Assembly: GCA_029287645.1 (NCBI GenBank)
Contig: JARFQS010000199.1
Span: forward strand, 1-11,259
Length of the DNA stretch: 11,259 nucleotides
Source of the DNA: Thermoanaerobaculia bacterium
Lineage (GTDB): Bacteria > Acidobacteriota > Thermoanaerobaculia > Multivoradales > JAHEKO01
Reading direction: 5' to 3'
In this document: in pieces, positions 1-6,406 of the stretch
Numbering within the stretch: the stretch's first letter is position 1
Layout of the letters: every line of letters begins with the position of its first letter
Notes under the pieces: model-generated
Seen by the model: the letters and a program-made list of their open reading frames with translations, nothing else
Told to the model about the DNA's origin: nothing
Databases searched by the model: none
Position numbers and translations under genes: made by a program

Positions 1-211
1 CTGGTGAGGTATAGGCCCCGGAACCGTCTGTGAAGACGCTCGCAATCCAGTCGCCGTTGGAATAGGAGATGTTGACCAGGACGCCCTCGATCCCGAGGGC
101 CGTGTCGCTGTCGGTGATGGTGCCGGAGAAGGTACCCGTGGTGGCAGCAGCTGACAGCAGACCAGTCGAACACGTGAACAGGCTGACGAGAGCTACCCCG
201 GTGCGTCTCAT
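1..211 (-). CDS. Secreted protein with carboxypeptidase-regulatory-like (Cna-B-like) domain, N-terminal fragment
   Basis: The first 70 codons of a leftward gene that runs off the left edge. The protein begins MRRTGVALVSLF, a typical signal peptide with a basic N-end, a hydrophobic core and an AAA cleavage region near residues 21-23. Next comes GTFSGTITDSDTALGIEGV followed by VNISYSNGDW and FTDGSGAYTSP. This pattern (G-x-V/I-x-D near the start, then a small beta strand, then TDxxGxY) is that of carboxypeptidase-regulatory-like or Cna-B-like beta-sandwich domains found in exported surface proteins. The ATG is preceded by AAAGGGTGA, a plausible though slightly distant ribosome site. A GEMM-I riboswitch lies in the leader, so expression is probably set by a cyclic dinucleotide. 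What the rest of the protein does cannot be known from this fragment. The export signal and domain start are seen; a surface or matrix role is inferred. Confidence 0.8.
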   Translation of the reverse strand, partial: MRRTGVALVSLFTCSTGLLSAAATTGTFSGTITDSDTALGIEGVLVNISYSNGDWIASVFTDGSGAYTSP

Positions 212-310
212 GGCAAAGTTCACCCTTTCTTCCCAGGCCGGCCTTCTCAAAGGAGTGCCCGCCGAAGGATGATCGAGCCCTGCACGAGGCAGGGAGACTG
301 CGCCAATGGA
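212..310 (-). promoter_or_regulatory. Probable expression platform of the GEMM-I riboswitch
   Basis: The 99-nt leader between aptamer and start codon can form a 6-bp hairpin CCCTGC/GCAGGG with a 5-nt loop (294-278). Farther down, TCCTTT (254-249) can pair with AAAGGG (228-223), the likely ribosome-binding stretch, across a 20-nt loop containing a GGCCGGCC palindrome. No run of T follows either hairpin, so control of translation initiation looks more likely than intrinsic termination. The pairings are visible in the sequence; their regulatory role is inference. Confidence 0.45.
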
Positions 311-426
311 GGCTTCGGTAGCCCGGCCGCCTACAGCCCATCGCAGGAGATGCGAGTAGCAGCCATTCAGGCAGAGGTCCGTGGCTTTGCGGCCCTGGCT
401 CGCGCCAGGTGAGCCTTTGTCGAGCC
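311..426 (-). promoter_or_regulatory. GEMM-I (cyclic-di-GMP-I type) riboswitch aptamer
   Basis: Read on the minus strand from 426 to 311. It has the ordered hallmarks of the GEMM-I aptamer. P1 pairs GGCU (426-423) with AGCC (314-311). The 5' core GACAAAGGC aligns with the Vibrio Vc2 core. A perfect 6-bp P2 stem CCUGGC/GCCAGG is capped by a GCGA (GNRA) tetraloop (409-394). The near-invariant CGCAAAGCC follows at 391-383, with the ligand-stacking A at about 388. A longer than usual P3 arm comes next, with CGCA/UGCG at its tip. The conserved 3' core GCCGGGCUACCGA closes it (328-316, one base from P1). The G at 415 aligns with Vc2 G20, which favours c-di-GMP over cGAMP. It sits about 100 nt upstream of, and in the same orientation as, the secreted Cna-B-like gene. 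GEMM-I elements commonly control extracellular, motility or cytochrome genes. Confidence 0.9.
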
Positions 427-463
427 TGTATCAAGTGTATTCGAAGGTCGTTGATGGTGCTAC

Positions 464-1156
464 ATGGATTCGCTGCTAGGCTTGCCGGGAATGCGAGTCT
501 TGCCCTCTCTGATGATGGTCCTACTGGCGTTGTCCCTTCTGGACTGGGCAGGTGGGGCCAAGCTGTCATCTGTCCCAGCGGATGTCCTTCTGCGGCCCGC
601 TGACGAGTTCTGGAACGAGCCGGCCCCCGAGCGCTTTCGAGTGCGCTTCGAGACGACGGAAGGCGACTTCGTCGTGGAGGCTCACAGGGAGTGGGCTCCG
701 CTTGGTGCCGATCGTCTCTACAACCTCGTGAGGGCCGGTTTCTACGACGACAGCCGTTTCTTCCGCATTCGTGCTGGTTACATCGCGCAGTTCGGCATCG
801 CTGGAGATCCGGAGGTCGCCACGGTCTGGAGAGAGCGGGCCTTCGACGACGATACGGTCCGCGAGACCAATACGAGGGGTCGCATCGCCTATGCGATGAC
901 GGGTCCCGACACGCGGACCACACAGCTCTATATCAATCTGGTCGACAACACCCATCTCGACGCTCAGGGCTTTGCACCGCTCGGCGAAGTGGTCGAGGGC
1001 ATGGAGGTCGTGGACCGGCTCTACGCTGGATACGATGAGGGTGCTGGCGGTGGGATGAGGGGTGGCAAGCAGGGCAAGATCTTCAGTGAAGGCAATGCTC
1101 ATCTGGACCGGGAGTTCCCGAATCTGTCGAAGCTCGAAAAAGCTGTCATCGAATAG
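464..1156 (+). CDS. Exported cyclophilin-type peptidyl-prolyl cis-trans isomerase
   Basis: Catalyses cis-trans isomerisation of proline peptide bonds, assisting folding; the signal peptide places it outside the cytoplasm. From the first ATG, residues 10-31 (MRVLPSLMMVLLALSLLDWAGG) form a signal sequence. Residues 58-185 are a cyclophilin domain: RFETTEGDFVVEAHREWAP at the start, FFRI with R101 matching the catalytic Arg55 of human CypA, GYIAQFGIAGDP with Q109 matching Gln63, the TTQLYINL strand (152-159), and LDAQGFAPLGEVVEGMEVVD (165-184). At 230 aa the length fits a single-domain exported cyclophilin with short extensions. No good ribosome site precedes position 464. An in-frame ATG at 491 gives an equally good or better signal peptide (MRVLP) and may be the real start. 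The next gene follows after 9 nt, so this is probably the first gene of an operon. An equally long frame on the other strand is a shadow. Confidence 0.9.
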   Translation: MDSLLGLPGMRVLPSLMMVLLALSLLDWAGGAKLSSVPADVLLRPADEFWNEPAPERFRVRFETTEGDFVVEAHREWAPLGADRLYNLVRAGFYDDSRFFRIRAGYIAQFGIAGDPEVATVWRERAFDDDTVRETNTRGRIAYAMTGPDTRTTQLYINLVDNTHLDAQGFAPLGEVVEGMEVVDRLYAGYDEGAGGGMRGGKQGKIFSEGNAHLDREFPNLSKLEKAVIE

Positions 1157-6334: not shown

Positions 6335-6352
6335 CTTCGCGCTCAGCTACCC
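6325..6352 (+). terminator. Hairpin overlapping the permease stop codon, possible terminator
   Basis: A perfect 8-bp stem GGGTAGCT/AGCTACCC encloses an inner AGC/GCT stem with a TTCGC loop and a one-base bulge. The TAG stop codon (6332-6334) is within the 5' arm. No T run follows, so it may be a processing or stability element rather than an intrinsic terminator. The structure is clear, the function is inferred. Confidence 0.45.
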
Positions 6353-6406
6353 AAATGGGTGTTGCATAGAGGCGCATGTGCCTGCATTCTTGGGTGGAGG
6401 CAAGCC

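Follow-up and report, generated by a model that had tools for sequence, protein, structure and literature searches.

What lies on the minus strand near one end of this contig, between positions 427 and 310, which molecule would it sense, and which gene might it control? The window, by which we mean the whole stretch of 11,259 bases that was analysed, had been predicted to hold here a GEMM-I riboswitch for c-di-GMP or cGAMP ahead of a gene for an exported beta-domain protein. Having followed up that prediction, we consider the element to be, very probably, a class-I riboswitch that senses c-di-GMP and lies in the 5′ leader of a gene for an exported, probably beta-sandwich repeat protein.

The aptamer and its relatives

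Judged from its sequence, by covariance models and covariation, the element is established as a GEMM-I (c-di-GMP-I) aptamer. A cmscan search found a match over the full length of the RF03167 model (c-di-GMP-I-GGC; all 80 positions) at minus-strand positions 424-313, with 60.7 bits and an E-value of 1.3e-12 over the window, barely above that family's gathering score of 59. It is the sole gathering-level RNA match listed in the 11,259 bases, the tool having omitted one overlapping match of the same clan. The main c-di-GMP-I family, RF01051, whose Infernal model the original prediction had named as its check near 426-311, matches the minus strand at 425-314 with 51.8 bits, well over its cut-off of 35. 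With two Rfam models above cut-off and covariation in agreement, the GEMM-I claim stands. A covariance model of our own, R1, which was built from 22 short-looped relatives, none of them from the window's genome, places the copy at 427-310 (66.4 bits, E 4.1e-16 over 328,601 bases). P1 is longer than in the Rfam model, the pairs A427-U310, G426-C311 and G425-C312 being recognisable by eye, and we take the aptamer with this extended P1 to span 310-427. The core elements that had been named lie on the expected strand: reading the sequence gives a GNRA cap, GCGA, on P2, CGCAAAGCC at 391-383 and GCCGGGCTACCGA at 327-315.

The element is one of many. In 18 genomes of the family, a search with RF03167 gave 95 matches at an E-value of 0.001 or better, distributed over 16 genomes with 1 to 19 in each; G001 and G002 had no match at that level. 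Twenty-four of the 95, in 9 genomes, exceed the RF03167 cut-off. In a class-level sample, searched with stricter filters, 24 of 119 genomes carried RF03167 matches; 17 of these genomes are not members of the family, and each holds between 1 and 3 copies. Ninety-one of the 95 family matches were fetched, the four weakest by E-value being left out.

R1 was used to realign 91 matches including the window (weakest E-value 1.1e-7), among which the 22 training relatives match by construction. In this alignment, which is biased toward the structure because it was fitted to it, 178 double-change cells were counted against 56.5 in shuffles, none of the 500 shuffles reaching as high. Changes on both sides occur at 19 of 23 pairs, each of the three outermost P1 pairs has double changes, and 93.2% of cells are paired, compared with 17.6 to 42.0% in six slid versions. 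A MAFFT alignment of the 22 relatives agrees (51 double changes against 17.9 shuffled). In the window, the pairs of P1, P2 and P3 are intact except for one A-C mismatch in P3, and the equivalent of C44, one partner of the interhelical C44-G83 pair of the class, is C; it is C in 90 of the 91 copies.

The ligand pocket

Positions G20, A47, A48 and C92 are given as key ligand contacts in the accessible text of PMC3764141 and PMC4744006, and the window has G, A, A and C at these positions. On the minus strand, the G20 equivalent is a G at 415, the A47 equivalent an A at 388 and the C92 equivalent a C at 318; the residues were read from the columns of alignment A2, that at 388 also from the RF03167 alignment, where the consensus is G, and the coordinates were counted from the sequence. 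The pocket read in this way predicts c-di-GMP rather than cGAMP as the ligand, and of the two molecules originally offered the first is favoured and the second disfavoured. In keeping with this, the window's own genome has 9 GGDEF, 7 EAL and 9 PilZ domain matches, from putative c-di-GMP proteins.

It is improbable that the aptamer prefers another ligand, either 3′,3′-cGAMP or that of the GGC variant. The case for this would be that the top Rfam match is the GGC-named family, above RF01051, and that some family copies depart from the c-di-GMP pocket, 2 of 91 having A at 20 with A47 and C92, and 2 of 91 having G at 47. Against it stand the G20, A47 and C92 of the window itself. A at position 20 we take to be the hallmark of 3′,3′-cGAMP (GEMM-Ib) aptamers, and the window has G there. 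This G argues against cGAMP because a G20A mutant of a c-di-GMP-I riboswitch is reported as cGAMP-binding, as far as the accessible text of PMC7288161 goes. As for the GGC type, we infer from the RF03167 consensus that the name refers to positions 20, 47 and 92, with the middle G at model position 37; no explanation of the name was found in the open-access literature searched, including the accessible parts of papers that name the variant. Model position 37, equivalent to position 47, is A in the window, so the G of the GGC type is absent.

Across the 91 family copies, position 47 is A in 88, G in 2 and C in 1, and the full G/A/C pocket is present in 80, the window among them. The other pockets are CAC (3), AAC (2), gap-AC (2), GGC (2), GAT (1) and ACC (1), some of which are perhaps alignment shifts or products of truncation. 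Since 80 of the 91 copies are G/A/C, the family mostly has a canonical c-di-GMP pocket despite the window's best score being to the GGC model. This carries a caution of more general use: a best match to a variant Rfam model should not be taken to point to a variant ligand, since in this case the pocket is canonical.

The exceptional copies deserve mention in their own right. The two with A at position 20 (L059 3165-3287 and L095 3287-3405) resemble a cGAMP-type pocket, though alignment shifts are possible, and the two with G at 47 (L071 4968-5065 and L102 533-635) resemble a GGC-type pocket.

The downstream gene and the mode of control

The next feature on the minus strand is the start of a probably exported protein gene at 2-211, supported by the open reading frame list, a signal-peptide heuristic and sub-cut-off Pfam matches. 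The frame is incomplete because the window is the whole of contig C45 and the frame runs off its end. Its candidate starts are the ATG at 211 and, as an alternative, an in-frame GTG at 223. From the aptamer to ATG 211 the gap is 101 nt, and by the hydropathy rule the protein begins like a signal peptide, which bears out the placing of a signal-peptide gene about 100 nt past the aptamer on the same strand. The further claim of an exported beta-domain protein fares unevenly. Export is supported by the signal-peptide-like start; for the beta-domain there are two Pfam matches below cut-off (CarboxypepD_reg, 21.1 bits against 32.3, and SdrD_B, 20.7 against 29.7) and a weak relative that reads as a repeat protein. 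This relative, from G015, is the only other family match to the window protein (31% identity, E 2.4e-4).

By eye, that relative (L138 1-747, on G015:C212) has repeated beta-type repeats and a FADGFESGDLSAWS stretch at its end, the latter perhaps a C-terminal sorting tag.

From its position, we infer that the aptamer controls the downstream gene, and the family is consistent with this. Behind 82 of the 91 fetched copies, gene calling gave a gene that has a Shine-Dalgarno match; 3 copies have no called gene and 6 more have no Shine-Dalgarno match of 4. Signal-peptide-like starts, scored by the same simple hydropathy rule, are found in 58 of the 82 downstream genes and in 31 of 199 control reading frames from the same loci (Fisher p 8e-19), a control rate that spurious frames may have depressed. 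No common protein family emerges: with at most 590 aa taken from each, 78 downstream proteins matched 61 Pfam families at E 1e-5, and no family was shared by more than 3 of them. The other 4 of the 82, among them the window's protein, fell below 90 aa and were omitted. The 25 families shown for these 78 proteins include FG-GAP, Lcl_C, subtilase and di-haem peroxidase, and also PAS, protein kinase, citrate synthase and TIR; because of the latter four, the downstream set is not purely exported.

How would the switch act? A terminator scan of window 1-700 found no terminator-like site, and terminator control was set aside for the window; in the leaders of the relatives, terminators were looked for by eye only. 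A 6-bp hairpin in the leader (278-294, minus strand) is not followed by a T run, and no expression platform could be recognised. Because no terminator was found, control at the level of translation or mRNA decay is most likely. The distance from aptamer to start has a median of 50.5 nt over the 82 genes, which would suit translational control; the window's 101 nt is longer. In folding predictions for 74 leaders, enforcing the aptamer raised the mean unpaired probability of the Shine-Dalgarno sequence from 0.339 to 0.427, the value increasing by over 0.1 in 25 leaders and decreasing by as much in 12 (p 0.003). This is a small effect, and the window's leader hardly differs (0.41 to 0.43). Enforcing the aptamer costs a median of 15 kcal/mol of predicted energy over these leaders (about 20 in the window's case); left to itself, with no ligand modelled, the folding program thus prefers other folds to the aptamer. 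On such modelling we lean slightly, and no further, towards the ligand turning expression on.

The P3 loops are pyrimidine-rich across the family. Anti-Shine-Dalgarno-like matches of at least 5 occur in 36 of 71 loops of at least 12 nt (17.8 in shuffles), an excess that is confounded because the same stretch pairs within P3, and an anti-Shine-Dalgarno loop in P3 is accordingly kept as a lead and was not adopted.

The favoured c-di-GMP riboswitch would then work as follows. Transcription probably starts near 427, from a -10 box discussed below. The c-di-GMP made by the cell's GGDEF enzymes would bind the G20/A47/C92 pocket, and the bound ligand would lock P1, P2 and P3 together, including the extended part of P1 (310-312/425-427); both the pocket and the helices are established by sequence and covariation. 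The mRNA leader downstream would change, thereby setting expression of the exported protein.

Upstream sequence, neighbouring gene and known systems

On the minus strand, a probable -10 box, TACACT, occupies 434-439 (-15 to -10 relative to the start of the aptamer), and a weak -35-like TAGCAC lies 17 nt before it, at 457-462. A consensus promoter scan of window 1-700 found no promoter. The support for TACACT is its register: a TANNNT starting at -17 to -13 is found in 50 of 89 copies compared with 3.4 in shuffles (2 of the 91 copies have less than 80 nt upstream and are omitted from this count and from those of the dyad below), and the window's box starts at -15.

Base counts upstream of the aptamers reveal conserved blocks, of which the most conspicuous is a dyad, CCACCC-N4-GGGTG, about 54 nt upstream of the aptamer in 62 of 89 copies. 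The refined motif reads C-C-(C/T)-(A/G)-C-C-C-N4-G-G-G-T-G-(G/T)-(T/C)-G-C, then about 20 nt, then T-A-N-N-N-T. In a leave-one-genome-out scan, which is not fully independent as all copies had contributed to its seed pattern, drawn by eye, a score of at least 10 at -61 to -44 is reached by 62 of 89 copies, compared with 0 of 84 distal windows and 0.5 of 89 in shuffles; of the 64 copies that score at least 10, 59 have a dyad beginning between -52 and -56. Outside the family, none of 18 aptamer copies scanned (of 23 outside matches) scores 10 or more, the best reaching 9.1. Of the window's sister copies in its own genome, the one on C2 scores high for the dyad (21.9), whereas the one on C8 falls slightly under the threshold (9.7). 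At the window copy itself the dyad is absent (score -3.6), with TACACT exactly in register.

The dyad is not exclusive to riboswitches. Its strict pattern has 16 matches in 7 of the 18 genomes, against none for a reversed control pattern; 11 of the 16 lie ahead of a GEMM copy, counting truncated or decayed copies that the model supports to some degree, and 4 (L140, L141, L144 and L148) have no aptamer. L152 is a dyad copy whose aptamer looks decayed by eye alone, its model match being located elsewhere. A looser scan of the fetched loci (657,202 bases, both strands) gave 58 matches at GEMM copies and 21 elsewhere, some of the 21 being the opposite strand of the same palindromes, compared with 8 in 1.5 million random bases.

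Several individual loci may be recorded here. Strong dyad promoters stand before truncated or decayed aptamers at L151 1551-1605 (G003:C364), where P3 is missing altogether, at L145 1449-1555 (G017:C296), a weak match of 14.0 bits (E 0.11), and at L150 1402-1468 (G003:C129). A dyad-like GCTACCCAAATGGGTGTTGC (score 16.8) occurs in the window at 6346-6365, plus strand, around the start of a ferredoxin-like reading frame at 6359; by eye, the TANNNT box is absent at the usual distance. Some contigs carry several GEMM copies, including pairs within 1 kb (G014:C229 2217-2300 and 2943-3033; G004:C68 28851-28967 and 29352-29472) and three copies over 10 kb on G003:C198, suggesting local duplication.

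The spacing of the dyad is compatible with a -35/-10 promoter whose operator has its centre near -43 relative to the inferred start site. An operator near -43 is in the place of class II activators. We judged a reading of the dyad as an RNA hairpin less likely than a DNA operator. For DNA speak the narrow position of the dyad, the TANNNT-like box at a fixed distance and the rarity of double changes, one pair having both arms varying (T-A for C-G in 2 of 65 copies). For RNA speak the A or G of the left arm opposite T in 58 of 65 copies, allowable as A-U or G-U, and the middle four bases, with their preference for GTTC or CTTC on a single strand (15 of 65 copies), a bias that a symmetric operator would not require.

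It is tempting to propose, at what we consider even chances, a module with two keys, in which a putative regulator at the CCACCC-N4-GGGTG operator near -43 licenses transcription and the c-di-GMP riboswitch then gates expression, across scattered, largely exported-protein genes of one Thermoanaerobaculia family, in which a genome can hold as many as 19 copies; in this scheme the operator would have been lost from the window copy, or never gained by it. The window copy is in itself a well-supported new member of the c-di-GMP-I class before a probably exported-protein gene, and ordinary in kind. What is less ordinary lies at the level of the family, where riboswitches form a large set, most of them joined to a shared promoter dyad.

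The lack of the dyad bears on whether the window copy still works. It might be a relic that folds and may bind ligand but no longer controls its truncated neighbour, and besides the missing dyad one could cite the long 101-nt spacer, the own-genome copy on C8 with no clear gene behind it, the truncated or decayed copies in relatives, and the absence of the aptamer beside the orthologues of the adjoining cyclophilin gene in G015 and G017, the only two other family genomes with that gene at E 1e-20. We regard this as unlikely: the helices and pocket are intact but for the one mismatch in P3, the P1 extension pairs through letters unlike the commonest ones, the -10 box is in register, and a signal-peptide-like gene comes next.

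The cyclophilin gene itself, also with a signal-peptide-like start, diverges from the riboswitch at 464-1156 on the plus strand. Because its listed ATG is 39 nt from aptamer position 424, either its promoter or leader extends into the riboswitch region or the gene really begins further in. Antisense action on this gene, instead of or besides control of the downstream gene, would suit that closeness, and antisense-acting c-di-GMP riboswitches are proposed from a genome survey in the accessible text of PMC9943018, but it is the least probable alternative, as the next gene on the riboswitch's own strand has a signal-peptide-like start, an arrangement seen in 58 of 82 family cases, and the cyclophilin orthologues of G015 and G017 do without the element.

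If correct, the favoured reading of a c-di-GMP riboswitch before an exported-protein gene would bring exported proteins of an uncultured Acidobacteriota lineage under the control of c-di-GMP, and the conserved dyad would offer an experimental way to a regulator that may work together with the riboswitches across the family. In the library searched, no open-access paper treating both Thermoanaerobaculia and a riboswitch was found, and no description of such a riboswitch set with a shared dyad was recognised in the open-access literature, which was searched by means other than the motif letters.

Among known systems, RF01051 aptamers share with the window the three-helix fold, the GNRA-capped P2, the G20/A47/C92 pocket, a score above cut-off and a probably exported target; the window differs in a long P3 insertion, with possibly its own hairpin, and in scoring higher under the GGC model. 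RF03167 is the top model and has core stretches such as AAAGGC and GCCACGG in common with the window, but at its position 37 (position 47) the window has A and the model G. The 3′,3′-cGAMP riboswitch (GEMM-Ib) has the same fold and belongs to the same class; it differs by A at position 20, where the window has G. The closest parallel for the family as a whole is Geobacter sulfurreducens, for which the accessible text of PMC8835794 gives 17 GEMM-I copies, 12 of them shown to bind cGAMP. Both sets have multiple GEMM-I copies per genome, whereas the Thermoanaerobaculia family has a c-di-GMP pocket in 80 of 91 copies and an upstream dyad in 62 of 89.
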